Shown here: one piece after another, positions 18,497 to 47,261 of the stretch
Layout of the letters: each line of letters begins with the position of its first letter
Numbering within the stretch: position 1 is the first letter of the stretch
NCBI GenBank assembly: GCA_014239555.1
Contig: JAAZYR010000013.1
Location: forward strand, 1-53,422
Length of the DNA: 53,422 nt
Reading direction: 5' to 3'
Source of the DNA: Acidimicrobiales bacterium
GTDB taxonomy: Bacteria; Actinomycetota; Acidimicrobiia; Acidimicrobiales; Poriferisodalaceae
Notes under the pieces: model-generated
The model's database searches: none
Told to the model about the DNA's origin: nothing
Seen by the model: only the letters and a program-made list of their open reading frames with translations
Translations under genes and position numbers: made by a program

Positions 18497-19615
18497 TTAG
18501 ACCCGCGCCGAGACGAAATCTTCGAGGCCCATCGAGCTGGACAGTTCCGACATCGATTCAAGGCGGCTTGCTGGATGGCGAGTTCCGGTCCCATCGGCGA
18601 TTCTGGTCATCATCTCGAAGTTGGCGACAACCGCTGCAGCATCCAACATTGTCGCCTCATCTGTGGCTTCGACTAGAGCTGACCGGGCTGATGGCAACGA
18701 CGCTAAATCGTTAACGGACGCGTCTACAAGTGCAGCTAATTCGGGTGCGTGGTGGATGGCATCACTTTCTTGCAGGTCTCCTCGAACTACATCTACATCA
18801 AGTTCCAGGTCGTTTGCGGTGCTGCTCGCACGGAGCATCATTGAGTGAGCCACAGTTCAGTAAAAACATTCTCTATGTGCTGACAGCCTTCCTGCGACGA
18901 GTTCGATTTGTCGACGAGACAAGGTGCCTCGAGTCCAGTTCAAGTCGACCATTTCCCGCATCGGAATGTACTGCGCGTCGCCGAGCGTAAACAGAGTATG
19001 CATCGCCGATGGGACTGAACTGAGTGCTCGGATGACTGGCGCTAGTGCTGGAAGTCCGTCGTAAAAAGGTGCGAGTTCTGGCGTGCTGTCTTCAAGATGC
19101 ACGACGGGCACCCAATGATGATTTGCAGGTTTAGAAGGTTGAGTTTGGCGCGTTGGGTGGCCTTCAAGGGGCTCAGGAAATTCTGGTTGGTCAACTCCAG
19201 CTAACTGAGCGAAGCGAAGTACTGATGTGACGATGATGGTGACTTCGATTATTTCCACCCACTGTTGGGGGGTTACTCCAGTAGCGTCGCGCATCTTCTG
19301 GTACCACTGTTCAGTCAGAGTTCCTGCGTGCAGGGCTAGGCGATATACCGCATCTTGTAGCTCCGAATTGATTACTGAGTCGTTGGGTAGCCGTCCACTT
19401 TTCGAAGCGCTGTCCCACGGTGGTACCGGGTCGGTGTCGCTTAACGCTGAGCGAACGACCTCCGCGACGGCTAAGCGTTCAGAACCGCTCCACCATGTTC
19501 CTGGAGCGGCGAGCTTTTCCCAAACCTGGGCGTGAGCTGCTGTTAGATCAGAGCGGATCTGAAGATCTGTCGACTCATGCGACGACTCGATGAGGGATGT
19601 TGGAGTTTGCGTCAT
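18497..19615 (-). CDS. Selenoprotein: two-domain AhpD-like (carboxymuconolactone decarboxylase family), Sec253
   Basis: Read through an in-frame TGA (18857-18859) this gene encodes 372 residues with selenocysteine 253. The active site is ECFY-U-TVAHS, giving E238-x11-C250-x2-U253-x3-H257, the spacing of AhpD's Glu118/Cys130/Cys133/His137; AhpD-type proteins have Cys where the TGA stands. The frame continues for 119 codons into ANFEMMTRIADGTGT, the conserved AhpD-family C-terminal motif. A SECIS-like hairpin follows 24 nt after the TGA. The N-terminal half (about 40-150) looks like a second AhpD-like repeat without CxxC. A thiol or selenol peroxidase/reductase role is inferred. Standard gene calling would split it into a 252-residue protein and a 118-residue orphan. 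It is divergent from another such gene 69 bases away. Confidence 0.86.
18820..18840 (-). promoter_or_regulatory. SECIS-like hairpin of the first AhpD-like gene
   Basis: On the minus strand the mRNA folds as UGCUC / GAGCA (five pairs) around the five-base loop CGUGC, with an A-G mismatch and two further pairs (U-A, G-C) below. The loop begins 24 nt after the UGA and has G as its second base followed by U. These are the known bacterial SECIS features (short apical loop with an early G, stem right after the UGA, 16-37 nt spacing). It lies inside the coding sequence. Confidence 0.7.
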
Positions 19616-19684
19616 AGCGCCCTACTAACTAGATAAGACCGTTATTGGCACCGTAGTTGCTGCAGGCGGGGCACGATAGTGGGT

Positions 19685-20239
19685 ATGGCTTGGATTGAGA
19701 TTGTCCCTGACGACGAATGGGCTGACGATAAAGCCCTTAGCGATCTGTATGACGGAGTCGTGGATAAAGGGCACGGCCGCGTCGATCACATCATGTCGAC
19801 ACATTCGCTTAACCCGCGCGGTCTTGCAGCGCACGCCGCCTTATACGGGTCGGCAATGTCAGGCACACGCAACTTGCGCAAAGTCGAACGGGAGATGATT
19901 GCGCTAGTAGTGAGTCTTGAAAATCGTTGTCATTACTGAATTCGTCATCACCGGCGCGGTCTGCGCGGTTTACTAAAAGACGATGTGCTAGCTGACGCAA
20001 TTGAAAGTGATTGGAGGGTTGCTCCGCTCAGCGATAAGAGAAAAGCGATGCTTCTTTACGCCACCAAGCTGACGAGCGCCCCCGCCGATGTGACGGCGGA
20101 AGACGTTGCTGTGCTCCGTCGCGCTGGTTTCACCGACCGAGATGTTCTCGACATAGTTGAGGTCACGGCTTACTACGCCTACGCGAACCGAATTGCTGAC
20201 GGTCTAGGAGTTACTGACGAACCTTGGATTGTTGACTGA
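19685..20239 (+). CDS. Selenoprotein: single-domain AhpD-like peroxidase-related protein, Sec85
   Basis: Read through the in-frame TGA at 19937-19939 this gene encodes 184 residues with selenocysteine 85, the normal length of peroxidase-related AhpD-family proteins. The active site is RCHY-U-IRHH, giving E70-x11-C82-x2-U85-x3-H89, again the AhpD spacing with Cys replaced by UGA. The upstream part (LYGSAMSGTRNLRKVEREMIALVVS) and downstream part (LLYATKLTSAPADVTAEDVAVLRRAGFTDRDVLDIVEVTAYYAYANRIADGLGV) are textbook AhpD-core sequence on both sides of the TGA, so neither half makes sense alone. The ATG is preferred over a GTG two codons earlier. A SECIS-like hairpin with the loop GGUCU follows. 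Likely a selenol-dependent peroxide or thiol oxidoreductase. Confidence 0.91.
19950..19969 (+). promoter_or_regulatory. SECIS-like hairpin of the second AhpD-like gene
   Basis: The mRNA pairs ACC-G-GCGC with GCGCGGU: four G-C pairs, one bulged G, then three more pairs, closing the loop GGUCU. The loop begins 18 nt after the UGA. GGUCU is, as I recall, also the apical loop of the Escherichia coli fdhF SECIS, whose G and U contact SelB. The bulge on the 5-prime side below the loop is also in keeping with known bacterial SECIS elements. Confidence 0.8.
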
Positions 20240-20277
20240 GCTTTCGGTCCGAAAAGGACTGGTGCGACTTGCATGGG

Positions 20278-21198
20278 TTACGTGAAGTTGGGTGCGATTT
20301 CTTCGGCGAAACGATTAATTGCCTCGAGGCGTCCCTCGTTGCCACGGCCGAGAACAAAAAATGCAGCGTGAGTGAGCCCAGCTTCCTGGTACCTGCCGAT
20401 CTGATCAATTACCTGCTCGGTGCCCCCACCGATCTCTCCTTCGTCGAGGTTGCCGCCATCGAAGTTGAGTCTGAACAAGCTCGTCAATTCCAGTTCTCGT
20501 GAGTCGCGTTCCACGACGTCGCATGCTTCTCGAACCGCAGCCCACTGCTGTGAAAGTAAGTCTGGGCTACCGAAGGCTGCGTGAAAAGCGTCGCCGAAAA
20601 CAGCGGTGCGTGTAAATGCTGCAGGAGAATGACCGCCCACCCAAACAGGTATGTGGTTCTTGACCGGTTTCGGGCTAAAGCCGATGTCGCGAAAGCTCGT
20701 CCAAGTTCCCTCATAGGAAGACAAATCATCTTCAAATAAAACCTTGAAGACCTCCAATGTTTCGTCGGCGCGCGCGCCTCGGTTATCCCAAGGGCGGCCG
20801 ACTGCCTCGAATTCCTCTTTCATCCAACCAACCCCAACACCCATAATCGCTCTTCCATTGGAGAGGTGATCAAGAGTGGCCCAACTCTTGGCTTGTTGCA
20901 CTGCGCCCCGGTAACCCAGTATCAAAACCGTGGTTCCCAGGAGTACCCGTTCGGTGATGCCGGCGACGAATTGGAGGGTTCCGAGGCAATCCAGCCAGGC
21001 GCTGCCGGCTGGCGGAAAACCGCTGTTGTCGTCGGCGTAGGGATATTTAGACGTCAAAGTTGCTGGGTCTGGCCATGCAATGTGATCGCTTGACCACAAC
21101 GACGCATACCCGAGGCTTTCGGCCGTAGTGGCGATATTGATCATTGCTTCGCGACTTGGATCGCGGCCAGCATCGGGAAGATGAACTCCGAATTTCAT
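20278..21198 (-). CDS. LLM-class F420-dependent oxidoreductase
   Basis: The 306-residue luciferase-like protein has MKFGVHLPDAGRDPS, SLGYASLWSSDHIAWPD, ERVLLGTTVLILGYRGAVQQAKSWATLDHLSNGRAIMGVGVGWMKEEFEAVG, and VWVGGHSPAAFTRTA. The D-H-I/V, L-D-x-L-S-x-G-R and G-V-G-W-x-x-E-E-F motifs mark the actinobacterial F420-dependent LLM subgroup with the conserved GWM/EEFEA segment. Substrate unknown. It closely resembles the LLM gene at 23779-24657 in these motifs. It converges on the selenoprotein gene and is divergent from a CaiB gene. Confidence 0.91.
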   Translation of the reverse strand: MKFGVHLPDAGRDPSREAMINIATTAESLGYASLWSSDHIAWPDPATLTSKYPYADDNSGFPPAGSAWLDCLGTLQFVAGITERVLLGTTVLILGYRGAVQQAKSWATLDHLSNGRAIMGVGVGWMKEEFEAVGRPWDNRGARADETLEVFKVLFEDDLSSYEGTWTSFRDIGFSPKPVKNHIPVWVGGHSPAAFTRTAVFGDAFHAAFGSPDLLSQQWAAVREACDVVERDSRELELTSLFRLNFDGGNLDEGEIGGGTEQVIDQIGRYQEAGLTHAAFFVLGRGNEGRLEAINRFAEEIAPNFT

Positions 21199-21287
21199 TG
21201 CGTTCCTTTCGAGAATTGAAACGGACCCTAGAAGATGTGAGGTGGTTCACGCTGCACGACTTGCCCGATGTCTCTACGCTTCGCTGC

Positions 21288-22511
21288 ATGGATAAGGAGG
21301 ACTTCTACCGGTATGCCCGCAGAGACGTCCCAGGTCCATTGGCAGGAATGCGAGTTCTGGACACGACCACCGCCTGGGCTGGCCCTATGGCAGCGTGTCT
21401 CCTAGCGGATTATGGCGCTGACGTTGTTCGAGTTGCGATGCCGGGAGATCAAGGGTTGCCTTGGAAACCTTTGATTGCTGGAACATCCCGATCTTTTGCA
21501 GAAGAAACTGTGAATCGGAATAAGAGAAGTGTGGCGATTGATCTTCGAAAGCCTGAAGGTGCAGAGACGTTCTTAACGCTTGTGTCTTCTGCTGACATCG
21601 TTATCGAAAACTTCAAGCCAGGCACACTTGCAGGATGGGGTGTGGGATACGAACAATGCCGACGCATAAAGCCTGATCTTGTGTATGTCTCGCTCAGTGG
21701 TTGGGGCCAGTTCGGACCTGAGTCGGAACGACCCGGATACGACCCGGGCGCACTAGCCCACAGCGGATGGATGGCCCTGAACGGATCTATTGAAGGACCT
21801 CCGACCAAGGCTCCAACATTTCTTGCTGATGACCTCGCAGGTTTACATGCGGCGCTTGCCGCGTTGTCCGCTCTTCGTCATCGCGATGCAACGGGTGAAG
21901 GTCAACATGTAGATGTTTCCCTTCTCGACTCGATTCTTTACCAGTCCAACGGTTACCTGACCTTGGGGGCTACAGGTGATCCTCTCGAACGGTGGGGTAG
22001 CGAAGTAAGAGTTTGCGCGCCGACAAACTGCTACCAATGCCGAGACGGCCATGTGTTTATTGCACTTATTCTCGACTCTCATTGGATTCGGCTCACCGAA
22101 GTGCTTGGTTGTCCTGAACTCGGTACTGATCCTCGCTATCTCACTAACGAAGATCGGGTGGTCCACCGATCCGAAGTCAACGCTTTGGTCGCGGACTGGT
22201 GTCGAGATCGAAGCAAAGCGGAAGTTATTGCCGCTATTGACGCAGCAGGCATCGTGATTTCGTTGGTCAACACATTCGCGGATGCTGCTCGTGATCCTCA
22301 TATTCTCGAGCGCGACATGTTGCAGTCGACGGTATTAGCCGATGGGTCTTCAGCACCCTTAACTGGCCCTGCCGCAAAGTTCAGTCGCACGCCGGTTGGC
22401 GTGCGACACGGCGCGCCTTCACCGAATCAGCACACAGATGAAATCCTCGCTGAAGTGGGAGTGACGAGAGAACAGTTAGAACTCCTTCGTCAGGCCGGGG
22501 TGATTGATTGA
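21288..22511 (+). CDS. CaiB/BaiF family III CoA-transferase
   Basis: The 407-residue protein has MRVLDTTTAWAGPMAACLLADYGADVVRV, NRNKRSVAIDL, DIVIENFKPGTLAGWGVGYE, SLSGWGQFGP and TFLADDLAGLHAAL, in which Asp181 or Asp182 matches the catalytic Asp of family III CoA-transferases. The C-terminal part carries LGCPELGTDPRY and the DEILAEVG ending. The ATG used here lies 48 codons inside a longer frame that would overlap the divergent LLM gene; no clear ribosome binding site precedes it, so the start is moderately uncertain. Acyl substrate unknown. Confidence 0.92.
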   Translation: MDKEDFYRYARRDVPGPLAGMRVLDTTTAWAGPMAACLLADYGADVVRVAMPGDQGLPWKPLIAGTSRSFAEETVNRNKRSVAIDLRKPEGAETFLTLVSSADIVIENFKPGTLAGWGVGYEQCRRIKPDLVYVSLSGWGQFGPESERPGYDPGALAHSGWMALNGSIEGPPTKAPTFLADDLAGLHAALAALSALRHRDATGEGQHVDVSLLDSILYQSNGYLTLGATGDPLERWGSEVRVCAPTNCYQCRDGHVFIALILDSHWIRLTEVLGCPELGTDPRYLTNEDRVVHRSEVNALVADWCRDRSKAEVIAAIDAAGIVISLVNTFADAARDPHILERDMLQSTVLADGSSAPLTGPAAKFSRTPVGVRHGAPSPNQHTDEILAEVGVTREQLELLRQAGVID

Positions 22512-22555
22512 GGGATCACCACCTGGTGTCCCTCCCTGCTGTCACTATGTAGCGG

Positions 22556-23764
22556 ATGAACGTGGTTTTGATCTCAGCAGTTGTGGTTTTAGCCGTGGCG
22601 CTTGGTTATCTCGCCAATCAATTACGTCAACGCACGATCGATCTCTCGGCTGTGAATTCGGTAGGTCAAGTTGATACGGATGGACTAGTGAGTGCCGTTA
22701 AAGAAGCTGTTGATGCGCAGGTGGGGAAGGCGGCACAAGAGGCTTTGAAGACCAATACTGAACTGGCTGGCCAACTCATTGATGAACGTGCCCGGACGTT
22801 GGAAGAACAAACCAAGAATTTGTTGCAGCCGGTCACGGAGCAGATGGGCCAATTGAAAGCTTCGGTTGGCGATTTAAAATCAACTTACGAAAATAACAAA
22901 GGATCTGTTGACCGACTCAACGAAAGCCTCACTCAACAAATCAATGAACTCAATTCCCGGACAGGTGCGCTCGCCGGCGCGCTGAAATCCCCCTCTGCTC
23001 GAGGCGCGTGGGGTGAGAACCAACTGCGAAACATCATTGATCTCTCAGGGATGGCCACTTACTGCGACTACTCAGAGCAGACTATGGCGGCTGGTGACGA
23101 CGGCGGTCTTCGGCCAGATCTAACCGTGAGATTGCCGAATGGGGCTCGCCTCGCGATCGACTCAAAAGTCCCGTTAGCTGCGTACCTTCGTATGCAAGAA
23201 ATTGATGATTCGGCGGCGAGGGAAGCTGAAATGAAAAGCCACGTGAGGGCGATGCAAACTCATGTGAAGGCTTTGGCCGACAAACGTTATTGGTCTCTGT
23301 TTGATGATGCACCTGACTTCGTCGTGATGTTCGTTCCAGGAGAATCCTTTCTTGCTGACGCGTTGCGAACCGAACCGGGGTTGGTAGATGACGCGATGCG
23401 CCAACGGGTCGTCATCGCGTCGCCGATGAGCCTCATGGCTTTGTTACTGACTGTTGCCCGAGGTTGGCAGACCACCCTGTTAGCTGAAAATGCCAAGAAG
23501 GTTGAAGAACACGGACGGGAGTTGCATCGCCGGGTGGGAACGACACTGGCGGCGATGGCGAAAACTGGCCGTGGTCTAGAAAGTGCGACGAAGGCATACA
23601 ACGAGATGGTGGGAAGCGTAGAAAGCCGTGTGCTTCCAACGCTAAGGAAATTCAGTGAGTTAGGTGTATCGGGGGAAGAACTACCCGAAGTGCAACCAGT
23701 TGAGAGCGCTACTCGAGATTTGGCGTCGCGCGAATTAGAGAGCGGACCTGAGTCGACTGACTAA
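22556..23764 (+). CDS. rmuC: DNA recombination protein RmuC
   Basis: The 402-residue protein begins with one membrane helix (VVLISAVVVLAVALGYLA), followed by a long coiled coil (about 40-145) and the RmuC nuclease-fold domain: SPSARGAWGENQLRNIIDLSGM, DLTVRLPNGARLAIDSKVPLAAY, FVVMFVPGESFLADAL and LMALLLTVARGW. RmuC was found in E. coli as a limiter of inversion at short inverted repeats and has a PD-(D/E)xK-like core (D-x-x-V-x-L-P ... I-D-S-K is visible). The neighbours are catabolic, so it appears to be independent of them. Confidence 0.92.
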   Translation: MNVVLISAVVVLAVALGYLANQLRQRTIDLSAVNSVGQVDTDGLVSAVKEAVDAQVGKAAQEALKTNTELAGQLIDERARTLEEQTKNLLQPVTEQMGQLKASVGDLKSTYENNKGSVDRLNESLTQQINELNSRTGALAGALKSPSARGAWGENQLRNIIDLSGMATYCDYSEQTMAAGDDGGLRPDLTVRLPNGARLAIDSKVPLAAYLRMQEIDDSAAREAEMKSHVRAMQTHVKALADKRYWSLFDDAPDFVVMFVPGESFLADALRTEPGLVDDAMRQRVVIASPMSLMALLLTVARGWQTTLLAENAKKVEEHGRELHRRVGTTLAAMAKTGRGLESATKAYNEMVGSVESRVLPTLRKFSELGVSGEELPEVQPVESATRDLASRELESGPESTD

Positions 23765-23778
23765 TTGTCGTCGCGGGG

Positions 23779-24657
23779 TCAGGTTGAACTGTGTGCCGCT
23801 TCGATGAACGGTTCGATCATCTCTAAATTCGCGTCGAGGTGTTTGCTGCCCTGACGCATAAATGGGATCAATAACTGCGTCACTCCAGCTTCGGCGTAAG
23901 CCTCAACGAGTGAGGCATCCATTCGGTCGTTCACTGCACCAATGTGAATTTCTAGTTCCTCGATTGAGCGGCCCTCGGCTTCCATGAAGCGAGCTAGGCG
24001 GGTAATCATTTCCTTGCTGCCCTCAGGAGAAAGGTTTATGCCATACCACCCTTTCGCGAAGCGGGCTGTGCGACGAAGTGCTGCATCTGAATGCCCGCCA
24101 ACGCAGATAGGAACTCCGCCCAACTGAACCGGTTTGGGATGCATACGACACTCTCGCAACTTGTACATGTCACCGTCGAACGAACTCACTTCGTCGTTCC
24201 AGAGTGTGTTGATTACCTCAAGGTATTCGTCACATCGTTTGCCTCGATTCTCCCAAGGTGCGCCGCAGGCCTCAAACTCTTCCCAACTCCAGCCAACCCC
24301 GATACCAAAGTCCAGCCGGCCGTTAGACAAGAAATCCAGGGTTGCGTACTCCTTAGCTGCATAGACAGGGTTGTTTTGGGGAAGGATGCATATACCGGTA
24401 CCTAGACGGAGAGTAGAAGTGCAGGCCGCCAAGAAACCGATGCTGCTTACCATGTCCATCAGGCCACTGCCGTCGGGAAACCGGAACACTCCGTCGGGAT
24501 TACCGGGGTATTTCGACTCGTAGTTATCGAATAACACGATGTGTTCACCCAACCAAAACGAGTGAATCCCCATGGATTCGGCCTTTTGTCCGAATTCCTT
24601 CAGGAATTCGGGGGTTGCGACGGGTGATCGTAACGGAGTGAACAAGCCGATCTTCAT
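23779..24657 (-). CDS. LLM-class F420-dependent oxidoreductase
   Basis: From the MKIGLFTP start (eight codons inside a longer frame) the protein has 292 residues. LGEHIVLFDNY, STLRLGTGICILPQNNPVYAAKEYATLDFLSNGRLDFGIGVGWSWEEFEACGAPWENRG and PICVGGHSDAALRRTARFAKGWYG mark the same LLM subgroup as the gene at 20278-21198. The W-E-N/D-R-G step after the G-V-G-W motif is shared by both. It sits 36 bases behind the P450 gene on the same strand, suggesting a two-gene oxidation unit. Confidence 0.91.
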   Translation of the reverse strand: MKIGLFTPLRSPVATPEFLKEFGQKAESMGIHSFWLGEHIVLFDNYESKYPGNPDGVFRFPDGSGLMDMVSSIGFLAACTSTLRLGTGICILPQNNPVYAAKEYATLDFLSNGRLDFGIGVGWSWEEFEACGAPWENRGKRCDEYLEVINTLWNDEVSSFDGDMYKLRECRMHPKPVQLGGVPICVGGHSDAALRRTARFAKGWYGINLSPEGSKEMITRLARFMEAEGRSIEELEIHIGAVNDRMDASLVEAYAEAGVTQLLIPFMRQGSKHLDANLEMIEPFIEAAHSST

Positions 24658-24693
24658 CGAATATGTCTTTCTTCTAAGCAATTTTGGCGGACA

Positions 24694-25896
24694 TCACCAC
24701 TGGAGAGGTATATGTCGAGGCCCGCGTACTTGACCACCAGACCAAGTAACCGCATTGGGGTCGGTTAGTTCGAATTCAGGAATACGGCGGAACCACTCCT
24801 CGAGTGCAACTTTGATTTCCATCCGAGCCAAGTTGGACCCGAGGCACCGGTGGATACCCAACCCGAAAGCTGAATGACGGTTTACTTCTCGGTCGATTTG
24901 AAAAGTATCTGCATCTTCCATGAAATCGGTATCGCGATTCGCTGCTCCGAAGGGGAGCAGTACCCGCTGTCCGGGACACAGGGTTGTACCGGAGATCTCA
25001 ACCTCGTCGGTAATGACTCTGGCCATGGTTACTGGCGAGTAGAAGCGCAGAAATTCCTCGACTGCCGGGTCGAAGGAAGCGCTATCGCTAGCCAGGCGTC
25101 GACGATCTTTTGGGTGTTGTCCTAAATGCCAGAACGAGGAGCCGATAGAACTCCAAGTCGTGTCGATCCCGGCCAAGAGAAGAAGAAAAAGTCCTCCCAT
25201 GATCTGATTGTCATCCATCGGTTTGTCGTCGACTTCGGTTTCGAGAAAGTAGGTGACGATATCGTCACGCGGGTCCGCGCGACGGGCCTTCACGTACTCA
25301 CGGAAGTAGTCGAAAACCTCTTTAGTTGCGGCTTGAGCGACGTTCAGGTCAGTAGGCCCGATTTCAAGTAACTCTTCGACCCATTTACGGAAAAGATCAC
25401 CGTCTTCCTCTGGGATGCCGATCATGCGAGCAATGACCTTCACTGGTATGTGCTGGGCATAGTCCGCGCTGGCATCACACGACCCGGAATCGGAAAATTC
25501 GTCAAGTAATTCGTTGCATATTTGGCGCGTGATGGGGATCCATTTTTCGATTGCCTTCGGAGAAAAGGCAGGTAACAGTGCGCGGCGATGATCTTGGTGT
25601 TCAGGAGGGTCAGACGTGATTGGAGGGCTGCGAAAACTGCCGATGTCACTGACAGGGAGATCATTAACGATTACTGATTTTGATGAGAAATGTTCAGTGT
25701 CATGAGCAATTGTCGAGATGTCTTCGTGCCGCGTCGGGAGGTACACCCCATGGAAACGGTCGGTGTGGGCAACTGGGCATCCGCCCTCGCGCATGTCTTT
25801 CCAAATGGAGTATGGATCCGCGCTGTAATCAACGTGGAAATGGTCGAAGTCCGTTTCCCAGTCTTCGACATCAGGTCGGTTTGGAATTTCCGCCAC
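24694..25896 (-). CDS. Cytochrome P450
   Basis: The 400-residue soluble bacterial P450 has the I-helix oxygen-activation motif LLAGIDTTWSS, the K-helix ExxR in EEFLRFYSP, and the heme-binding SAFGLGIHRCLGSNLARME with the axial Cys351. ITSDPPEHQDHRRALLPAFSP is the usual C-helix region that carries the heme-propionate His and Arg. It needs a ferredoxin and reductase; neither gene is close by. It leads a minus-strand pair with an LLM oxidoreductase and is divergent from another LLM gene, so this is a small oxidoreductase cluster. Substrate unknown. Confidence 0.94.
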   Translation of the reverse strand: MAEIPNRPDVEDWETDFDHFHVDYSADPYSIWKDMREGGCPVAHTDRFHGVYLPTRHEDISTIAHDTEHFSSKSVIVNDLPVSDIGSFRSPPITSDPPEHQDHRRALLPAFSPKAIEKWIPITRQICNELLDEFSDSGSCDASADYAQHIPVKVIARMIGIPEEDGDLFRKWVEELLEIGPTDLNVAQAATKEVFDYFREYVKARRADPRDDIVTYFLETEVDDKPMDDNQIMGGLFLLLLAGIDTTWSSIGSSFWHLGQHPKDRRRLASDSASFDPAVEEFLRFYSPVTMARVITDEVEISGTTLCPGQRVLLPFGAANRDTDFMEDADTFQIDREVNRHSAFGLGIHRCLGSNLARMEIKVALEEWFRRIPEFELTDPNAVTWSGGQVRGPRHIPLQW

Positions 25897-26038
25897 TTCT
25901 TCCCCCTCTGGGCCTTTTCAGCTACCAGGTAACGCACCCAAGAACGAGCGTAGTCGGATCCCCACCCCTTTCTTCGATTTCTTGATTCTCCGGAATGCAA
26001 CGCGGCGGCACCGATCGCGGCGCGGCTACGGTCGGCGC
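25897..26038. promoter_or_regulatory. Divergent intergenic region, P450 versus LLM
   Basis: This 142-base stretch separates the start codons of the minus-strand P450 and the plus-strand LLM gene and should hold both promoters. I see no clear operator, repeat or small gene. Confidence 0.3.
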
Positions 26039-28245: not shown

Positions 28246-28351
28246 GACACCTACCCTAGAGAGCTTGAGGTTGGCTCGGCCACCAACGACTCATATCTCC
28301 GAAGCTTCTCGTCGCTAGTGTTGCGACGCAAGAGCTCGGAATAGGGGTGTT

Positions 28352-36654: not shown

Positions 36655-36768
36655 ATGGACAACACTGCGAAAGTTGAAGTCGAAGACTACAAAGCTCACA
36701 TCATCAGCGGTTACGGACTTAGGCGTCCACACAACCAATCGCCGATGCCGACTCTGTCTACTAAGTAG
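36655..36768 (+). CDS. Small 37-residue ORF, unknown
   Basis: This short frame begins at an ATG five bases after the zinc-ribbon stop and encodes a basic-to-mixed peptide (MDNTAKVEVEDYKAHIISG then GYGLRRPHNQSP). Its stop overlaps the GTG of the ribbon-helix-helix gene (TAGTG), the kind of junction common elsewhere in the window. No ribosome binding site is obvious and no family is known, so it could be a leader peptide, a small protein, or simply a leader region. Confidence 0.4.
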   Translation: MDNTAKVEVEDYKAHIISGYGLRRPHNQSPMPTLSTK

Positions 36769-37558: not shown

Positions 37559-37583
37559 CTGACCGTCTCGTCAGATCAGTTTT
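37555..37583 (+). terminator. Intrinsic terminator after the VOC gene
   Basis: CTGACTGAC pairs with GTCAG-A-TCAG, nine pairs with one bulged A, around a six-base CGTCTC loop, followed by TTTT. The stem covers the stop codon of the VOC gene. The position at the end of the zinc-ribbon to VOC operon makes it a good rho-independent terminator. Confidence 0.7.
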
Positions 37584-37645
37584 ATGTAGATAGACGAAGT
37601 CGCTAAGGTCCCCTACACAAAACGACAAAGGGTGTGGTGGGAAAC

Positions 37646-38284: not shown

Positions 38285-38300
38285 CTGGTCTTTTGACGGA

Positions 38301-38343
38301 GATCCTCATCCCGGTTCCGTGATGGAATACAGGGATGAGGATC
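38301..38343 (+). repeat. 12-bp perfect inverted repeat around the LLM start codon
   Basis: GATCCTCATCCC at 38301-38312 pairs perfectly with GGGATGAGGATC at 38332-38343. The 19-base interval folds further as TTCC/GGAA around GTGAT. The LLM start codon (ATG at 38335) and any ribosome binding site before it are inside the structure. There is no T-run after the right arm. It may be a transcription terminator for the preceding gene, a translation-control hairpin or an operator; the pairing itself is certain. Confidence 0.75.
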
Positions 38344-39318: not shown

Positions 39319-39357
39319 AAGTACACAACGTTTACTAAAAAAAGTTGAGCAGCCGAA

Positions 39358-39894
39358 ATGAACAACCCTCCCGATCCCTACAACTTTCTTCCCGAAGTTC
39401 CGGCTTTCGAAGTCACCAGTGACGATGTTGCCGAAGGGGAGATGCTTGCCATGCCCCAGGTTTCGGGCATCTTTGGGGCAGGCGGAGAAGACATCTCTCC
39501 GCATCTCAGATGGGACGGGGCGCCTGAGGAGACCCTAAGTTACGCGGTGACATGTTTCGACCCTGACGCCCCAACCGGTAGTGGCTTTTGGCATTGGGTT
39601 GTCTATGACATCCCTGCAGATATCAACGAGCTAACGACTGGAGCCGGGTCCCAGGATGGTTCGACCCTCCCAGCAGGCGCCAAGCAGCTAAAGAATGACG
39701 CCGGGTTATTTGGTTACCTGGGCTCGGCTCCTCCCGCGGGCCATGGACCCCACCGCTACATGTTCGTGGTACATGCTCTCAACGTTGCGTCACTGCCAAT
39801 CACTGAGGAAGTCTCTCCCGCTATCTGCGGTTTCAACATGTTCGGTATCACCATTGCGCGCGGGATTGTGACCCCGGTGTACGAACAGAACTAG
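39358..39894 (+). CDS. YbhB/YbcL (Raf-kinase-inhibitor-like, PEBP) family protein
   Basis: The 178-residue protein has SPHLRWDGAPEETLSYAVTCFDPDAPTGSGFWHWVVYDIPADI, HRYMFVVHALN and an ending GFNMFGITIARG. D-P-D-A-P ... W-H-W-V-V-Y-D-I-P is the ligand-binding signature of the PEBP family. The bacterial members are small cytosolic or periplasmic proteins of unclear role; no signal peptide is evident here. It may be cotranscribed with the LLM gene upstream. Confidence 0.92.
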   Translation: MNNPPDPYNFLPEVPAFEVTSDDVAEGEMLAMPQVSGIFGAGGEDISPHLRWDGAPEETLSYAVTCFDPDAPTGSGFWHWVVYDIPADINELTTGAGSQDGSTLPAGAKQLKNDAGLFGYLGSAPPAGHGPHRYMFVVHALNVASLPITEEVSPAICGFNMFGITIARGIVTPVYEQN

Positions 39895-39910
39895 TTGAAT
39901 GTGTCGGGCG

Positions 39911-40930
39911 CTATGACCGAGCGGCTTTAACGGTGTCGGCGATGGCGTCTGGATCTGGGGGCGCGCCGTAGAACATCATCGTTGACCTATCAGCGAAGCC
40001 GTTACGTTCTTTAAGTTTGGCACCAACTTCTGATGGCGTCCCTGAAACACAAAGCAGATCAACGAGATCATCGTCGATCTTCTCTGTCATCGTTTTCCAA
40101 TCACCTTGCTTAGAAAGCTGATTCAATTCAGGTTGCAAGTGCTCGTAACCGTGATAATCGAGTACACCTGAATACGCCGGTGTCGAGCCGTAAAACGCTA
40201 ATTGTGCTGCGGCTTTTCGCCGTGCGTCTGCAACTTCTGCGTCGTCGCGACCCATTGCGACAATCGTCAGGCAGGCGATGGTGACCTCGTTGTCAACGCG
40301 ACCTGCCGAACGTGCTGCGGCCGACAACACGGGAAGTGTCTCGGCTTCCATGTGATCTGGTGTGTGAAAAGGATGAACAAAGAACCCATCGGCAGAGTGA
40401 CCAATGGTCTCAACCATCTTCGGTCCGACTCCGGCGACGAAAATCTTTGGGCGGTCTACCTCTAGGGCCCCTGGGCTGAAGAATGGGGTCATCAGGGTGT
40501 GGGTATAGAACTCCCCCCGAAAGTCGAGTTTCTCGCCCGTCTGAAAATTGTCCCAAATCGCGTGGAGGGCAGCGATGTATTCCCTCATACGAGCAGCGGG
40601 TCGAGACCACGGTTCGCTGTATCGCTTGGTGATGTGGGGTTTTATCTGGGTTCCCAATCCCAAGATGAATCGGCCGTTGGATAGGCGTTGTAAATCCCAG
40701 GCGGTAACTGCGCACGTCATAGGGTTACGAGCAAACGCCACAGCGATAGCTGTACCCAACTCAATCGAAGTCGTCTGTTCTGCTGCTAACGCCACTGGAA
40801 GAAATGGGTCGTGAGAGGCCTCGAACGTCCATGCAGCGTTCAACTGCATGGCTTCGAAACCAGCAGCTTCGGCCGCGCATCCATCAACGGTAGAAGCTGT
40901 AGTAGCTCCGTCAATTAGGAATTCAGTCAC
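39911..40930 (-). CDS. LLM-class F420-dependent oxidoreductase (TIGR03617-like)
   Basis: The 339-residue protein opens AEAAGFEAMQLNAAWTFEASHDPFLPVALAAEQTTSIELGTAIAVAFARNPMTCAVTAWDLQRLSNGRFILGLGTQIKPHITKRYSEPWSRPAARMREYI. The F-A-R-N-P and R-F-I-L-G-L-G-T-Q-I-K-P-H-I motifs are those of the TIGR03617 family of actinobacterial F420-dependent LLM proteins. Substrate unknown. It follows the acyl-CoA dehydrogenase gene on the minus strand by 15 bases, so the two are probably cotranscribed. Confidence 0.92.
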   Translation of the reverse strand: MTEFLIDGATTASTVDGCAAEAAGFEAMQLNAAWTFEASHDPFLPVALAAEQTTSIELGTAIAVAFARNPMTCAVTAWDLQRLSNGRFILGLGTQIKPHITKRYSEPWSRPAARMREYIAALHAIWDNFQTGEKLDFRGEFYTHTLMTPFFSPGALEVDRPKIFVAGVGPKMVETIGHSADGFFVHPFHTPDHMEAETLPVLSAAARSAGRVDNEVTIACLTIVAMGRDDAEVADARRKAAAQLAFYGSTPAYSGVLDYHGYEHLQPELNQLSKQGDWKTMTEKIDDDLVDLLCVSGTPSEVGAKLKERNGFADRSTMMFYGAPPDPDAIADTVKAARS

Positions 40931-40945
40931 AGTGTCGCCTCCCGA

Positions 40946-42202
40946 TCAGTCGCCAAACCATTCAACTCCGCCTTTGCCTTCGAGGCGGGAAATTTCTGCC
41001 TGTGCCATGGTGAGTTTGGCGAGCTGATTCATATGAACTTCGTCAGGTCCGTCGGCTATACGCATGAGCCGCCCCGTTACATACATTTCAGCGATTGGTG
41101 TATCCCCGCTCACGCCTTTGCCTCCAAATATCTGCATAGCGCGCTCTGCTACGTCATGAGCCAATTTTGGTCCAACGATCTTCACCATTGAAATGTAATC
41201 ACGTGCTCCTTTAGCCCCGGATTTATCCATTTCTGCTGCTGCTTTGAGCACGAGAAGGCGCGTCTGCTCAATAGAACAACGAGCGCGAGCAATGTCTTGC
41301 CGTACCGAAGAGAAGTCGCGGAGTTTGTTGCCAAATGCCTCGCGTTGCTCAACGCGAGCGCACACGAGGTCAAGCATCCGTTGAGCCATTCCAACGTTGG
41401 TCATCGCATATTGGAAACGGCCTGGACCCAATCGCCCTTGGGCAATCTCAAAACCGCGACCTTCACCGAGGATGATGTTGTCAACAGGAACCCGAACATC
41501 GTGATACGCGAGCTCTCCATGACCTTGCGGGGAGTGAACGTTGCCAAAAACCGAGAGAGCTCGAACTATTTCTAAACCGGGCGTGTCCTTGGGGACAATG
41601 ACCATGGAGTGACGTTGATGCCGGGGATTATCAGGATTTGACACCCCCATCGTGATCACAAATTCACACAGCGGATGGTAAATGTTGCTGCTCCACCACT
41701 TACGACCGTTGAGTACGTAGTGATCGCCGTCGCGTTCTATTTGCAATTCCATATTTGTCGCATCTGAGGACGCTACTTGCGGCTCGGTCATACCGTATGT
41801 GGAACGAATTCGACCTTCCATCAGCGGTCGGAGCCACTGATCTTGCTGTTCTGAGGACCCATATTTGGCGAGTACCTCCATGTTTCCTCGATCTGGTGCC
41901 GAGCAATTGAACACCTCAAATGACCAGGGAATTCGACCCATTACCTCGGCGAGAGGGGCAAATTCGAGGTTGGTGAAGCCGGGACTCCATTCCGCGTACT
42001 CCGCAGGTAGAAACCAGTTCCAAATTCCCGCCGCCTGAGCTTTAGTTTTTAGCTCCTCAACGATCGGAGGCTGCTGCCATAGATTCGAAGGATCTTCCAC
42101 AAATTCGTGACGCTCGCGATCTGCGGGATACACGTTTTCTTCCATAAAGCCTTCGAGCTTTTCTTTGTACTCGAGTGTTTTGTCGTTGTATTCGAAGTCC
42201 AT
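40946..42202 (-). CDS. Acyl-CoA dehydrogenase (FadE/ACAD11-like)
   Basis: Start chosen from AGGGAGG eight to nine bases before the ATG (an upstream start in the same frame has no such site). The 418-residue protein has NCSAPDRGNMEVLAKYGSSEQQDQWL, IRSTYGMTEPQVASSDATNMELQI, GDHYVLNGRKWWSSN, RFQYAMTNVGMAQRMLDLVCARVEQREAFGNKL and MQIFGGKGVSGDTPIAEMY. The T-E-P-x-V-A-S-S-D-A-T-N and G-R-K-W-W-S motifs place it in the ACAD10/11-like branch, with flavin-binding Ser and Trp residues visible. It should catalyse alpha,beta-dehydrogenation of an acyl-CoA. Confidence 0.93.
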   Translation of the reverse strand: MDFEYNDKTLEYKEKLEGFMEENVYPADRERHEFVEDPSNLWQQPPIVEELKTKAQAAGIWNWFLPAEYAEWSPGFTNLEFAPLAEVMGRIPWSFEVFNCSAPDRGNMEVLAKYGSSEQQDQWLRPLMEGRIRSTYGMTEPQVASSDATNMELQIERDGDHYVLNGRKWWSSNIYHPLCEFVITMGVSNPDNPRHQRHSMVIVPKDTPGLEIVRALSVFGNVHSPQGHGELAYHDVRVPVDNIILGEGRGFEIAQGRLGPGRFQYAMTNVGMAQRMLDLVCARVEQREAFGNKLRDFSSVRQDIARARCSIEQTRLLVLKAAAEMDKSGAKGARDYISMVKIVGPKLAHDVAERAMQIFGGKGVSGDTPIAEMYVTGRLMRIADGPDEVHMNQLAKLTMAQAEISRLEGKGGVEWFGD

Positions 42203-42334
42203 TTCCAAATACCTCCCTGGCATAGACGACTGACCCGCATGATTGCATAACGAGAGGGATGCGTGTTTGACGAATGGACTCGGAGTAATGATCGACTATC
42301 GTGTGCATCCGTTGAACAAGAGTGAGGAGCCTCT
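42203..42334. promoter_or_regulatory. Divergent intergenic region before a small membrane-protein gene
   Basis: This 132-base stretch lies between the acyl-CoA dehydrogenase start (minus) and the small membrane-protein start (plus). It should hold a promoter for each. No operator or repeat stands out. Confidence 0.3.
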
Positions 42335-42445
42335 GTGGAAGACGAAAATTCTCTGATTCCTGCGATGATCGCGGTGTTCCTAGGTCTTGGTGGAGCGCTA
42401 GCGGCGGTCACCGTAGTGATCGTCACTACGCTTGTACTGATTTAG
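42335..42445 (+). CDS. 36-residue single-pass membrane protein
   Basis: A GTG with GAGGAG about six bases upstream starts a 36-residue peptide: a short acidic N-terminus (VEDENSLIPAM) and one hydrophobic helix running to the C-terminus (IAVFLGLGGALAAVTVVIV then TTLVLI). The GxxxG-like LGLGGAL segment could support helix packing. It is too short for usual gene calling but has a good ribosome binding site, a single-function composition and an otherwise unexplained 250-base gap around it. A role as an auxiliary subunit of a larger membrane protein is possible; none is adjacent. Confidence 0.6.
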   Translation: MEDENSLIPAMIAVFLGLGGALAAVTVVIVTTLVLI

Positions 42446-42474
42446 CTGCGACTGATAGTTGAGCTGCCGGAAAT

Positions 42475-43287
42475 TCAGAGACCCATGTCGGGCATATCGT
42501 TCGCCACGCTTCCCGACCAAGACGGCGCTCGCTTTTCCATGAAGTGCATGACTCCTTCGGTTGCATCGGGTTGACTGCCTAGCCAGGGGATCAAACGCAA
42601 TTCTCGTTGGAAGGTGTCGTCGATCTCAGCGCGCAAATTTTCCCACATCAGCTTCTTCGTCACTGCGACTGACACCGGTGCAGTGTTGTGTGCGACGTCG
42701 CGTGCCCATTCCAAGGCAGCGTCGAGAACAGCATCCGATGGTAAAGCGCGGGCTGCGAGCCCAATTTCGACTGCTTCGGTGCCTGAGAAGAACCTTCCTG
42801 ACATCAGCAGGTCGCTCGCGACCTGTAAACCCACCATTTGACTTAAGAGTTTCGTTGAACCCAATTCAGGGGCGATACCCCGGCGTACAAACGCAAATTG
42901 CAGTTTCGCGTCCTCTGCTACGAACCGCACGTCGCATGTCAGGGGAAACGTAAGCCCGACGCCGACAGCGTGGCCATTGATAGCGGCGACAACAGGTTTA
43001 GAAACATCCCAAGGCATGGTGCTCGGAGTTCCTTGTTCATGGGGATTCGCATCTGGGCTATCGGCGAAGGTGTCTCCTCCGGCCGAAAGATCCTGGCCGG
43101 CGCAGAACGCTCGACCCGCCCCCGTGATGACGACCGCCCTGACGGCGTCTTCTGCCTGCGCGTCTGCTAACGCCAGACCGAGTTCAGCAGCCATTTTCGT
43201 GTTCCAAGCATTTAGGCGTTCTGGACGGTTCAGAGTGACGAGAGCGACGCCTTGGTCAACTTCGTAGACGATCGATTCGTAGGTCAT
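42475..43287 (-). CDS. Enoyl-CoA hydratase/isomerase family protein
   Basis: The 270-residue crotonase has VALVTLNRPERLNAWN, GRAFCAGQDLSAGGDTF, GHAVGVGLTFPLTCDVRFVAEDAKLQFAFVRRGIAPELGSTKLL and MHFMEKRAPSW. The AGQDL and AF-x-x-R-G-I-A-P-E-L-G-S motifs include the position of a catalytic Glu (in PELGS). It is a paralogue of the crotonase at 35525-36313. The epoxide-hydrolase-like gene is divergent, with start codons 51 bases apart. Confidence 0.91.
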   Translation of the reverse strand: MTYESIVYEVDQGVALVTLNRPERLNAWNTKMAAELGLALADAQAEDAVRAVVITGAGRAFCAGQDLSAGGDTFADSPDANPHEQGTPSTMPWDVSKPVVAAINGHAVGVGLTFPLTCDVRFVAEDAKLQFAFVRRGIAPELGSTKLLSQMVGLQVASDLLMSGRFFSGTEAVEIGLAARALPSDAVLDAALEWARDVAHNTAPVSVAVTKKLMWENLRAEIDDTFQRELRLIPWLGSQPDATEGVMHFMEKRAPSWSGSVANDMPDMGL

Positions 43288-43338
43288 CGCCGCAGAGTAG
43301 TTGTGACAGGCTTGCCTTTGACGAGAAAAGGGACTCTG

Positions 43339-44295
43339 GTGGCTTTAGCAGATCGACACTTCGAAACGATTGAGACAAATGGTGTGAAACTGCGCTGCGT
43401 CGTGGAAGGTGATGGGCCTCTCATCATCCTGCTTCACGGTTGGCCTCAATGTTGGTACCTCTGGCGGCATCAGATCGACCCGCTAGTAGATCAGGGTTGG
43501 AAAGTTTGTGTGCCGGATCAACGCGGTTATGGCTTTAGCGAATGTCCCCCCGAAATCGACGACTACGGAGTTCGCGAACTGGCCGGCGATGTTGATGGGT
43601 TAGCAACAGCGCTGGGCTACGACGAGTACGCACTGATGATTCACGACTGGGGTGCGCTAGTTGGTTGGAACGTTGCCTTGCTCTACCCGCACAGAGTGCG
43701 TGCGGTAGTAGGTATGTCGGTTCCTTATGGGCGCAATCTGGATCCCGCTTGGTGCACGCAGCAATTCTGGGGCGACAGTTTCTTTTATTGGGCGTTCTTC
43801 TGTGAAAATGTTGGCGATGCGGAAGCTCATTTCGAAGCCGATATCAGAACTTCATTGTTAACGCTGCACCTTTCGGCCTCGGGTGATGCTGGACCGCCGG
43901 TCAGCCAAGTTGGTAAGACCACCATGTTGGAGGCCAGCCCACCCCCGCCCTCTGAGTTGCCGTCGTGGATGACTTCCGAAGATCTGGACTATTACGAAGC
44001 TGCATACGGCAACTCGGGATTTCGTGGCGGACTTAATTGGTACCGAAACATTCCGACTTTTTTGAAAGACACCGACGAATTAGAAGGTCACAAAATCGCT
44101 CAGCCAAGCATTTTCATTACAGGCTCAGAAGACCCAGTTCGGAAAATGACTGGTGGAAAAACGGGCGGCGAGCATTTTGAAGACTTGAGATCTGTCCACG
44201 TCATTGACGGCCCGGGGCATTGGGTACAACTGGAGGCGGTTGAAGAGACCAACACAATTGTTCTCGACTTTCTCTCAGAATTTGTATCGGGGTGA
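43339..44295 (+). CDS. Epoxide-hydrolase-like alpha/beta hydrolase
   Basis: The GTG start is chosen from AAAGGGA six bases before and because upstream frames overlap the divergent crotonase. The 318-residue protein has LLHGWPQCWYLWRHQI (oxyanion H-G-W-P, residues 33-36), VPDQRGYGFS, and the nucleophile elbow MIHDWGALVGWNVAL with Asp103. SEDPV and DGPGHWVQLEA near the end give the acid and the His. The HGWP and HDWG motifs are those of soluble epoxide hydrolases, which hydrolyse epoxides through an alkyl-enzyme ester on Asp. It leads a plus-strand run with SRPBCC and MFS genes. Confidence 0.9.
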   Translation: MALADRHFETIETNGVKLRCVVEGDGPLIILLHGWPQCWYLWRHQIDPLVDQGWKVCVPDQRGYGFSECPPEIDDYGVRELAGDVDGLATALGYDEYALMIHDWGALVGWNVALLYPHRVRAVVGMSVPYGRNLDPAWCTQQFWGDSFFYWAFFCENVGDAEAHFEADIRTSLLTLHLSASGDAGPPVSQVGKTTMLEASPPPPSELPSWMTSEDLDYYEAAYGNSGFRGGLNWYRNIPTFLKDTDELEGHKIAQPSIFITGSEDPVRKMTGGKTGGEHFEDLRSVHVIDGPGHWVQLEAVEETNTIVLDFLSEFVSG

Positions 44296-44338
44296 TGGAA
44301 CGAAGCAGCGGCAGCGGCGGCCTGTCAGACTCTCGGGT

Positions 44339-44815
44339 ATGAGCGAACCAATCATGAGTCACAGTGAGTCCATCGAAATTGATGCTTCAACCAACACCGT
44401 GTGGTCCCTGATTACCGACATGGAACGTTACGGCGAGTGGAGTTCGGAGAACACCGGCGGCTATTGGCGTAAGAACGAAGAAGGCGTGCCCGGGACGGGT
44501 GAGGTTGGTGACGAATTCGTTGGTATCAATCGACGTGGCGAAGACGAGTGGAAAGCGCTGGTGGAGATCATTGAACGCAAAGAGGGTCAAAGCTTCGCCT
44601 TTGTAACCGGTGGCAGTGCGATGAATTTGGTGCACTGGCGGTACGACCTTGAAGCTAACGGTGAAAGCACAACACTCACCGAGTCGTGGGCGTTAATGAA
44701 CCTGTCTCCGTTAATGATCGAAAACGGGGAAAATGAAGTTCAGTCGCGGGCAGCCAACGCTCGGGAAAGCATTACAGCGACACTTCAAGGTATGAAGGCA
44801 GCGGCTGAGGGCTAA
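44339..44815 (+). CDS. SRPBCC-family protein (polyketide cyclase / START-like)
   Basis: From the ATG chosen the protein has 158 residues. SHSESIEIDASTNTVWSLITDMERYGEWS is the standard SRPBCC opening (strand, then V-W-x-L-I-x-D-x-x-R-x-x-x-W-S), followed by long beta strands (SFAFVTGGSAMNLVHWRYDLEANGESTTLTESWAL) and a closing C-terminal helix ARESITATLQGMKAAAEG. These helix-grip proteins bind hydrophobic ligands. It sits three bases before the MFS start, so the two are cotranscribed. Confidence 0.88.
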   Translation: MSEPIMSHSESIEIDASTNTVWSLITDMERYGEWSSENTGGYWRKNEEGVPGTGEVGDEFVGINRRGEDEWKALVEIIERKEGQSFAFVTGGSAMNLVHWRYDLEANGESTTLTESWALMNLSPLMIENGENEVQSRAANARESITATLQGMKAAAEG

Positions 44816-44818
44816 ACA

Positions 44819-46234
44819 ATGGAGCGTCGCGGCCCCTTCATCGTCGCTTGTTTAGGTGGACTACTTGGTGGCCTTGATACCTCTGTGAACATAGCGTTTC
44901 CAGCGATCACAGCGGCATTTGACATTGATGTGTCGCAGATCCAGTGGGTTGTCGTCAGCTTCGTGCTCACCTACTCAGCCCTTCTCCTCCCCGCAGGTCG
45001 GTTGGCGGACCGAATCGGCCATGGTCGAGTCACGGTCATCGGAATTTTGGGGCAAGGCATCGCCTTCACATGCTGTGCGTTAGCTCCCTCGTTTCCTCTC
45101 TTCTTGCTGGCAAGAGTCAGCCAAGGTGCTGCTATGGCTCTCATCCTAGGTGCCGCCCCAGCTCTTGTGACCTTGTCGGTAAGTGAAGCACGGCAACCTC
45201 AAGCGTTGGGTGTCTACTCGATGGTCAGCGCGTTGGGGTTTGCTCTGGGAGCACCCGTTGGCGGTTTGCTGCTGCAAATCTGGGACTGGCCGTCGGTCTA
45301 TTTTTTCCGGGTCCCCTATATGGGTATGTTGCTCGTGTTCGCGTTGGCTTCAGGTTTGCATCGCCGACCATCAAAGATCACTCATCAACCGTTGGACCTT
45401 CTTGGCGCCGCGACCCTGACGGCTGGTCTCGGTTTGGCGCTTTTTGTTGCGAGCCGCGGATTGACATGGGGTTGGTTGACGCCACGTACGGCAATCCTCG
45501 GTTGCCTGGCACTTCTTCTTTTAGGACTTTTTTGTTTCGTCGAAAATCGGGCGACGTTACCTTTGGTTCAGATAGGACTGTTTCGCAGACCGGGCTTCGG
45601 CCAAGCCAACCTTTTGAATGCGCTGGCTAACGCCTCAATGTTTAGTTTGTGGTTCCTTGGCCCATACCTACTGGTGGATATCCGAGGTCACGGTCCGGTC
45701 ACGGGAGGGCTCATTCTTGGAATAGCCCCGACAACCACGGCTGCTGCGGCTTGGGTTGCTGGTCGTTTGACGAATCGACTCGGGCTTCGGGCCTTGACTC
45801 GATTTGGGTTGGCGTGCCAAGGAATTGGATTGATTGTTTTTAGCCGGGCTGACGCCGACACTCATCTGGGTTTGTTGATTGTCGGATTGAGCATGGTGGG
45901 GATTGGCCTCGGTTCCTTTCAGGTTCCCAACATGAGCTTTGTGATGGGTTCTATTCCTCGGTCTCAGCAAGGAGTTGCTGGAGGGATGACGCAGATGGTT
46001 CGCACGTCCGGACTGGTCGCTGGGCTTGCTATTTGGAACACAGCATTCGTGGGTCTTCGTGACCGTCGAGCTGACTCCCTTGGTATTGAGGATGTCTCCA
46101 GTCCCGAAGTTTTCGTGCCCACGTTTGCAGAGGTCGTGGGAATGTCGGGGCTACTCGCGTTAGCTGGAATCCTTCTGACTATCGGTGTGACCTTCGAAAA
46201 TCGGCTTAGCGGCTCGCCTCCCGACGAGACATGA
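44819..46234 (+). CDS. MFS transporter, DHA2-type (about 14 helices)
   Basis: The 471-residue protein has fourteen hydrophobic stretches, starting GGLLGGLDTSVNIAFPAITAAFDIDVSQIQWVVVSFVLTYSALLLPAGRLADRIGHGRVTVIG. The D-T-S-V-N-I-A-F-P-A-I motif in helix 1 and Q-W-V-V-x-x-F-x-L in helix 2 are characteristic of the DHA2 (EmrB/QacA) drug:proton exporters. The tail overlaps the 3-prime end of the convergent selenoprotein gene by 29 bases. It exports a hydrophobic or toxic compound of unknown type. Confidence 0.9.
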   Translation: MERRGPFIVACLGGLLGGLDTSVNIAFPAITAAFDIDVSQIQWVVVSFVLTYSALLLPAGRLADRIGHGRVTVIGILGQGIAFTCCALAPSFPLFLLARVSQGAAMALILGAAPALVTLSVSEARQPQALGVYSMVSALGFALGAPVGGLLLQIWDWPSVYFFRVPYMGMLLVFALASGLHRRPSKITHQPLDLLGAATLTAGLGLALFVASRGLTWGWLTPRTAILGCLALLLLGLFCFVENRATLPLVQIGLFRRPGFGQANLLNALANASMFSLWFLGPYLLVDIRGHGPVTGGLILGIAPTTTAAAAWVAGRLTNRLGLRALTRFGLACQGIGLIVFSRADADTHLGLLIVGLSMVGIGLGSFQVPNMSFVMGSIPRSQQGVAGGMTQMVRTSGLVAGLAIWNTAFVGLRDRRADSLGIEDVSSPEVFVPTFAEVVGMSGLLALAGILLTIGVTFENRLSGSPPDET

Positions 46235-47261
46235 AATCGTTGACTCCCACAATCTCGCGAATCTCAGCCGATGGCTCGATTGTCCCAACGTCCAGGGGAG
46301 TACCTGTTCCGTCGGCGATGCGAGTCATCATGTAAAAGTTCGCCGATACTGCGATTGCGTCCACCAGCACGTCAGGTCCGGCAGCTTCGATTACCTCATC
46401 TCGAATCGAAGCTATTTCATCGGGGTCCTGAGTGAACATTGCTTCGCACAGACGCGACAGCAACGCACCATGTTTGACACCGCCATCGCCAGCTTGGGAA
46501 CCGTCAATCGCTTCGAAACTGATTTGGGAATCTTGGTTCATTCCGCTCAGACCGAGCAGGAGAGCATGACTAGTGGTTCAGTAAAAACACTCATTGAGCT
46601 TCGATGTCCTCGCCGCGATCAATTCAATCTGCATGCGAGTAAGCGAGTTCTGGTCTGATACAAGATCGGACAACAACGTACCCATCGGCACATATTGGGT
46701 CGCCGAGAGAAGGCTCATCGACTCAACTTCGAAGGGGACAGCGCTTAACGCCTTCACCACATTTGGCCCCTTGACTTGCGCAGTAGGAACCCAGTGTGAA
46801 GTTACTTCTGCCGAATTGTCGTTAGACCGAAGGGGTTGATCTGACGACGCTTCGGGCAAGGTGACCCGGGCGACGTTCAACGCGTCCGCAAACCGATCGA
46901 CTGCGTTTGCTTGGGCCACCACACCCACGAGTTCTACATAAGCCTGAGGGTTGACGTCTTGACCCAGGATCGACGCGTGCCATTCAGCCGTCAAGGTGCC
47001 TGGATGGTTAGTGATGCGCCAAATCGCATCTACAACAGCAGTTGGTAATAGGTGATCTTTAGCGACGAGGCCGTCCAGCTGGCTTGGGGCTTCCCATGGC
47101 GCTAAGTCATCTGCATCTCTCGCTCGGCGAACTTCTTCGACTATCGCCACACGTTCAACGCCCGACCACCAACTGCCCGTAGTCGCCCAGCGACTCGCGA
47201 CCTCAACATGGCTGGTGTCTAGATCGAGGCGAATAGGTAGTTCAGTCGTGTAAGCAACCAT
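46206..47261 (-). CDS. Selenoprotein: two-domain AhpD-like protein, Sec228
   Basis: Read through an in-frame TGA at 46578-46580 and started at the ATG before VAYTTELPIRLDLD, this encodes 351 residues with selenocysteine 228. The active site NECFY-U-TTSHA gives E213-x11-C225-x2-U228-x3-H232. After the TGA the frame goes on for 123 codons with ANFYMMTRIADGTGT, the same C-terminal motif as the paralogue at 18497-19615; N-terminal halves also match (W-W-S-G-x-E-R-x-A-x-x-E-x-V-R, H-x-G-T-L-T). An upstream in-frame ATG 42 codons earlier would intrude into the divergent DyP gene. A SECIS-like hairpin with the loop GGUCU follows. It is divergent from a DyP-type peroxidase, which supports a peroxide-defence role. 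Confidence 0.87.
46543..46559 (-). promoter_or_regulatory. SECIS-like hairpin of the third AhpD-like gene
   Basis: On the minus strand CUGCUC pairs with GAGCGG (six pairs, one G-U) around the loop GGUCU. The loop begins 24 nt after the UGA. The loop is identical to that of the second gene although the stems differ in sequence, a covariation-like pattern that favours a conserved RNA structure over a conserved peptide. Confidence 0.8.

Follow-up and report, generated by a model that had tools for sequence, protein, structure and literature searches.

Three AhpD-like genes with in-frame UGA codons

The 53,422-nt stretch analyzed here (hereafter the window; positions 1 to 53,422 of contig JAAZYR010000013.1, assembly GCA_014239555.1; contig C4 of genome G000 in our genome set) derives from a member of the Acidimicrobiales, family Poriferisodalaceae, and contains three AhpD-like genes predicted to encode selenoproteins. 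With TGA read as a residue, gene 1 (18497..19615, minus strand, 372 a.a) and gene 3 (46206..47261, minus strand, 351 a.a) are two-domain AhpD-related genes of the NF041238 family and share 34% identity over almost their full length. Gene 2 (19685..20239, plus strand, 184 a.a), divergent from gene 1, is an AhpD-like member of the TIGR01926 peroxidase-related family. The UGA codons lie at codon 253 of gene 1 (18857..18859, minus strand), codon 85 of gene 2 (19937..19939, plus strand) and codon 228 of gene 3 (46578..46580, minus strand), and are the sites of the predicted selenocysteines (Sec) Sec253, Sec85 and Sec228.

Direct reading of the translations confirmed the claim of a first-pass annotation that UGA replaces the second cysteine of a CxxC site in all three genes: each contains E-x11-C-x2-U-x3-H (E238, C250-x-x-U253 and H257 in gene 1), and genes 1 and 3 both read ECFYUT, a CFYU-T motif with the UGA in frame. 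The catalytic relay comprises Glu118, Cys130, His132, Cys133 and His137 in Mycobacterium tuberculosis AhpD, and Glu36, Cys48, Tyr50, Cys51 and His55 in PA0269 (PMC3141380). Given the correspondence of these relay positions, the UGA occupies the site of AhpD Cys133 and PA0269 Cys51. All three genes retain the AhpD and PA0269 relay residues, with the tyrosine preceding the UGA matching Tyr50 of PA0269. Six of the nine UGA sites in the window were set aside on position, as overlapping a longer open reading frame (ORF) in a different frame or on the opposite strand, or as joining two adjacent ORFs (the site at 4030). The window showed no Rfam match at the gathering score and no tRNA by ARAGORN.

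Genes 1 and 3 scored 334.8 and 343 bits against NF041238 (curated cut-off 175, whole protein), while gene 2 scored 138.6 bits against TIGR01926 (curated cut-off 81.8). Genes 1 and 3 stayed under the latter cut-off (30.3 and 35.9 bits). Against the canonical AhpD model, TIGR00777, gene 2 reached 12.7 bits (curated cut-off 191.95) and genes 1 and 3 were absent from the matches listed.

Conservation of the UGA codon, hairpins and selenocysteine genes

All 28 loci drawn from named records of Acidimicrobiia and other Actinomycetota metagenome-assembled genomes have the UGA at this position. Across 198 genomes of the order, gene 1 gave 54 matches at an E-value of 1e-10 or better, of which 52 contain exactly one TGA and the remaining two, without a TGA, read ECFYC, with cysteine at the site (L079, G094:C434; L080, G165:C69). 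The Cys form L079 is nested in a clade of UGA-bearing sequences, as would follow a switch between Sec and Cys. The sequence beyond the UGA is conserved in these matches, bearing out the earlier claim that the frame continues through conserved family sequence. A further NF041238 copy (G203:C30:4500-7000, L175), excluded from both the UGA and Cys tallies, has an open frame that appears to lack the stretch with the CxxU hairpin, reflecting either a real loss or an assembly fault.

For gene 2, all 27 matches with at least 58% identity that span the site have one TGA. Matches without a stop are at most 41% identical, except a 54-residue fragment (63%) that falls short of the site. Among the 120 of 170 protein-database homologues of gene 2 that were listed, 104 are short frames, taken as starting after the UGA; the others have cysteine (8), tryptophan (5) or leucine (1) at this site or fall in none of these groups (2), and the Cys forms reach 55–58% identity. 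The W forms (P0061, P0063, P0064, P0072 and P0074) and the L form (P0062) may be true replacements, or a gene caller may have applied a different code to the UGA.

The first-pass annotation held that its reading would fail if close homologues terminated at this position, and in protein databases they appear to. Of the NF041238-type homologues listed for a gene 1 query, 55 of 57 end exactly at C-[FHYW]-[YFW], as do 119 of the 120 matches listed (of 320) for a query of 13 aligned members. However, these ends are where gene callers stopped; in the DNA examined, the frame runs on. As most listed entries are cut or split at the UGA, the function of both families is easily overlooked.

A hairpin of the selenocysteine insertion sequence (SECIS) type follows each UGA. 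In gene 1 (18823..18837, minus strand), TGCTC-CGTGC-GAGCA has its loop starting 24 nt past the UGA; in gene 2 (19952..19968, plus strand), the loop GGTCT lies 18 nt past the UGA within an inner GCGC-GGTCT-GCGC, with one outer-stem mismatch in the window copy; and in gene 3 (46543..46559, minus strand), CTGCTC-GGTCT-GAGCGG has its loop 24 nt past the UGA. All three loops are 5 nt long, the inner stems of genes 1 and 3 are GCTC-CGTGC-GAGC and GCTC-GGTCT-GAGC, and the loop, stem and spacing of all three agree with the bacterial SECIS model as described in a 2026 review (PMC13188914). The lowest-energy 54-nt folds include these loops (−10.8, −12.4 and −9.3 kcal/mol for genes 1, 2 and 3, respectively), and in some relatives they do not.

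Across relatives, the four base pairs nearest the loop are formed in 59 of the 64 distinct NF041238 segments, compared to a mean of 5.0 and a maximum of 12 in 1000 synonymous resamplings, and in 32 of 36 distinct gene 2 segments (mean 3.1, maximum 10), with the GGTCT loop invariant in all 36; these counts exclude six duplicates (L046-L051) and four distant matches (L149-L152). In 28 gene 1 homologues, only UGA+8 (CTC) and UGA+11 (AGC) use a single codon among 42 conserved four- or sixfold degenerate columns, and in 16 close homologues this is restricted to UGA+8 to +11 of 150 columns. Gene 2 shows the same codon lock at UGA+7 and +8, but also at two columns elsewhere (of 63). The gene 2 stem covaries: over 38 segments, four of six pairs have changes on both sides, with a score of 0.212 reached in none of 500 shuffles and at most 0.130 when the partners were slid. 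The NF041238 stem is uninformative in this respect because its inner three pairs are invariant, and there the codon lock carries the evidence.

Bacterial selenoprotein synthesis requires selA, selB, selD and tRNA-Sec, the genes for which the first-pass annotation had proposed to look (tRNA-Sec as selC), and all four are present in the genome outside the window and over their cut-offs. Contig C68 encodes tRNA-Sec (65.5 bits, cut-off 47; anticodon tca) and adjoining selB (288.7, cut-off 242.25) and selA (399.4, cut-off 267.9), while selD lies on contig C44 (369, cut-off 125). The selD gene (G000:C44:173025-173966) has one in-frame TGA and may itself encode a selenoprotein. Across the order, selA was matched in 119 of 198 genomes (114 over the cut-off), compared to 42 of the 43 genomes with a UGA-bearing homologue (41 over the cut-off; hypergeometric p = 3.2e-10, a value that overstates independence because the genomes are related). 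For gene 2, this comparison used matches of at least 39% identity and omitted weak one-TGA matches in G009, G025, G055, G078 and G172, each of which has some selA match.

Domain architecture, paralogues and gene neighborhood

Genes 1 and 3 are predicted to encode proteins of two domains, with catalysis confined to the C half. Two AhpD-type halves lie in one chain, as in Sestrin. In the structural model of gene 1, a loop takes the place of the active-site helix in the N half, and the C half keeps the helix (residues 251-267) with U253 and H257. The best structural match of this model is human Sestrin2 (9% sequence identity in the structural alignment), and gene 1 is accordingly predicted from the model to fold like this human stress protein. 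Sequence comparison with the Sestrin Pfam model (PF04636) gave no match at E-values up to 1 for genes 1 and 3 and 12.6 bits for gene 2 (gathering score 29.4). The acidic DDYDY hinge that replaces the C-half catalytic helix in Sestrin was not found; gene 1 instead has its loop in the N half. That loop has a mean of 3.7 acidic versus 1.7 basic residues over 30 sequences (L041 lacking this part), too weak an excess to claim a Sestrin-like acidic loop.

A third NF041238 copy with one TGA lies outside the window on contig C44 (77552-78643; L078, L180). It brings the AhpD-like UGA genes of this genome to four, has an N-half CxxC in addition to the C-half CxxU, and is preceded by a large ORF that, from its translation, may encode a penicillin-acylase-type enzyme. 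From a query with this copy, 24 loci were taken, of which four (L196, L197, L199 and L200) were left unscored for CxxC; an N-half CxxC (e.g., FECHLC) is present in all 20 scored loci and has no Glu and His spaced as in the catalytic relay. In a tree of 72 sequences (midpoint rooting only, with several long branches), the three NF041238 copies of this genome are placed in different clades. The N-half CxxC, seen in these 20 sequences and in L056 from another family (21 of 72; the other 51 lack it), requires four changes. By hand count, 27 of the 39 genomes of the family have at least two UGA-bearing NF041238 sequences.

Of 15 close loci, 13 have genes 1 and 2 as divergent neighbors. The exceptions are L020, a rearranged locus, and L031, with the start of gene 1 at the contig edge. 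A DyP-type peroxidase gene (47303..48307, plus strand; TIGR01413, 145.5 bits, cut-off 100.5) lies next to gene 3 and diverges from it; its ORF opens at TTG, with an ATG near 47378 being the likelier start. This arrangement recurs in 30 of 30 loci fetched from the family (30 of 39 genomes searched), one of which (L117) reaches only the DyP start. Among the titles listed in literature searches on DyP, AhpD and selenocysteine or selenoproteins, none concerned such a pairing. The surrounding genes encode thiolases with ChsH2-type OB proteins, enoyl-CoA hydratases, an acyl-CoA dehydrogenase, a CoA-transferase, F420-type luciferase-like monooxygenase (LLM) oxidoreductases and a P450, a lipid-type catabolic setting where organic peroxides are plausible. 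Two similar thiolase and ChsH2-type OB-fold pairs occur, at 16840-18446 near gene 1 and at 48383-50031 near gene 3; four of the 15 close loci have the former pair beside gene 1.

Predicted function and comparison with known proteins

We consider it likely (probability of about 0.75) that the three genes encode selenoproteins that reduce organic peroxides, a prediction made from sequence. The Sec reading of the three UGAs, as proposed in the first-pass annotation, is strongly supported and is the best of those considered because the set of Sec genes is complete, the SECIS hairpins are conserved (and covary in gene 2), and the UGA is kept in 52 of 54 gene 1 matches with Cys in the rest. Cysteine homologues of gene 2 in the database, which the annotation had suggested for comparison, show the same exchange. 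That the UGAs are plain stops or nonsense mutations in truncated or decaying genes is very improbable, despite the many database homologues that end there: UGA, rather than UAA or UAG, recurs at a single aligned position, the sequence past it is conserved, the hairpin codons are locked and Cys is the alternative residue at the site. Additional UAA or UAG codons in gene 3 relatives are few, and two of three checked are gene ends. An organism-wide reading of UGA as tryptophan or another amino acid could account for the W at the site in 5 of the 120 listed gene 2 homologues, yet it is more improbable still, given that gene 2 itself and its 13 close orthologues end in TGA, many ORFs of conserved families in the window are bounded under translation table 11, and the genome has the Sec genes.

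If Sec is inserted, SelB with tRNA-Sec would place it at the UGA, and the retained Glu and His relay would activate the selenolate for attack on an alkyl or lipid peroxide. The resulting selenenic acid would be resolved by the first Cys of the CxxU to a selenenylsulfide, itself to be reduced by a cellular dithiol (dihydrolipoamide- or thioredoxin-type), and the gene 3 product is predicted to work together with the DyP peroxidase of the divergent neighboring gene. We infer selenol-based alkyl hydroperoxide reduction because the AhpD relay is kept, Sestrin2 is an alkyl hydroperoxidase (PMC4674687) and a DyP gene is adjacent. Less probably, the Sec serves another chemistry, namely disulfide reduction, a role as AhpC-type adaptor or, like that of the AhpD-fold debrominase Bmp8, reductive dehalogenation; the retention of the full AhpD peroxidase relay and the DyP gene adjoining gene 3 argue against this.

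Several observations weigh against the prediction of peroxide-reducing selenoproteins. One genome with a UGA gene (G170, 83% complete) has no selA that we could see, and W or L stands at the Sec site in 6 of the 120 listed gene 2 relatives. A Foldseek search with the gene 1 model returned no match at an E-value of 0.001 or better. No DyP gene turned up next to the order-level copies examined, with matches confined to loci of family members; most of these loci had ~1.5 kb of flank, such that a farther partner would be missed. The other neighbors, mostly CoA, LLM and P450 enzymes, do not single out peroxide.

AhpD-like selenoproteins are already known as a phenomenon, as both families are named in earlier surveys and the 2026 review. 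This review lists NF041238 and TIGR01926 as CxxU selenoproteins and identifies the former as "hypothetical protein 1" from the Sargasso Sea selenoproteome survey of 2005 (PMC13188914); it was also the sole match in a full-text literature search for NF041238. A 2008 ocean survey counted 299 AhpD-like 1 and 70 AhpD-like 2 selenoproteins. Genes 1 and 3 are members of NF041238 (NCBIfam AhpD_rel_CFYUT, "alkylhydroperoxidase-related (seleno)protein"), with nothing setting them outside it, and gene 2 is a Sec form in a family where Cys forms also occur, with no difference found. The suggestion that the set is unusual and possibly undescribed was thus overrated, also given the recurrence of UGA-bearing NF041238 copies within the family. 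What is added to these known selenoprotein families is structural and contextual information: the predicted sestrin-like two-domain architecture, DyP neighbor and N-half CxxC sub-group find no mention in the passages of the NF041238 literature consulted.

Tentatively, NF041238 may represent a bacterial sestrin that uses Sec, built as an AhpD dimer fused into one chain. The active-site helix of one half would have become a loop, on the side opposite to the C-half loss in Sestrin. The paralogues (N-half CxxC with C-half CxxU versus CxxU alone) would then preserve steps of this half-loss, and one paralogue with the DyP haem peroxidase would form a peroxide-defense unit. The predicted architecture would connect this family of bacterial selenoenzymes with the question of how fused AhpD dimers gave rise to sestrins, and offers a bacterial enzyme with which this origin can be tested.

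In Sestrin2, the N half is redox-active (a lone cysteine, Cys125) and GATOR2 is bound by the C half (PMC4674687), in contrast to gene 1, where the site is kept in the C half with a predicted Sec. Sestrins and the two-domain bacterial analogues described in PMC11429811 have in common with genes 1 and 3 two AhpD-type halves, one of which lacks the catalytic helix. The word selenocysteine is absent from that paper, whereas genes 1 and 3 use a predicted Sec; its Corynebacterium and Comamonas analogues have their cysteines in the C half only, as is the case here.
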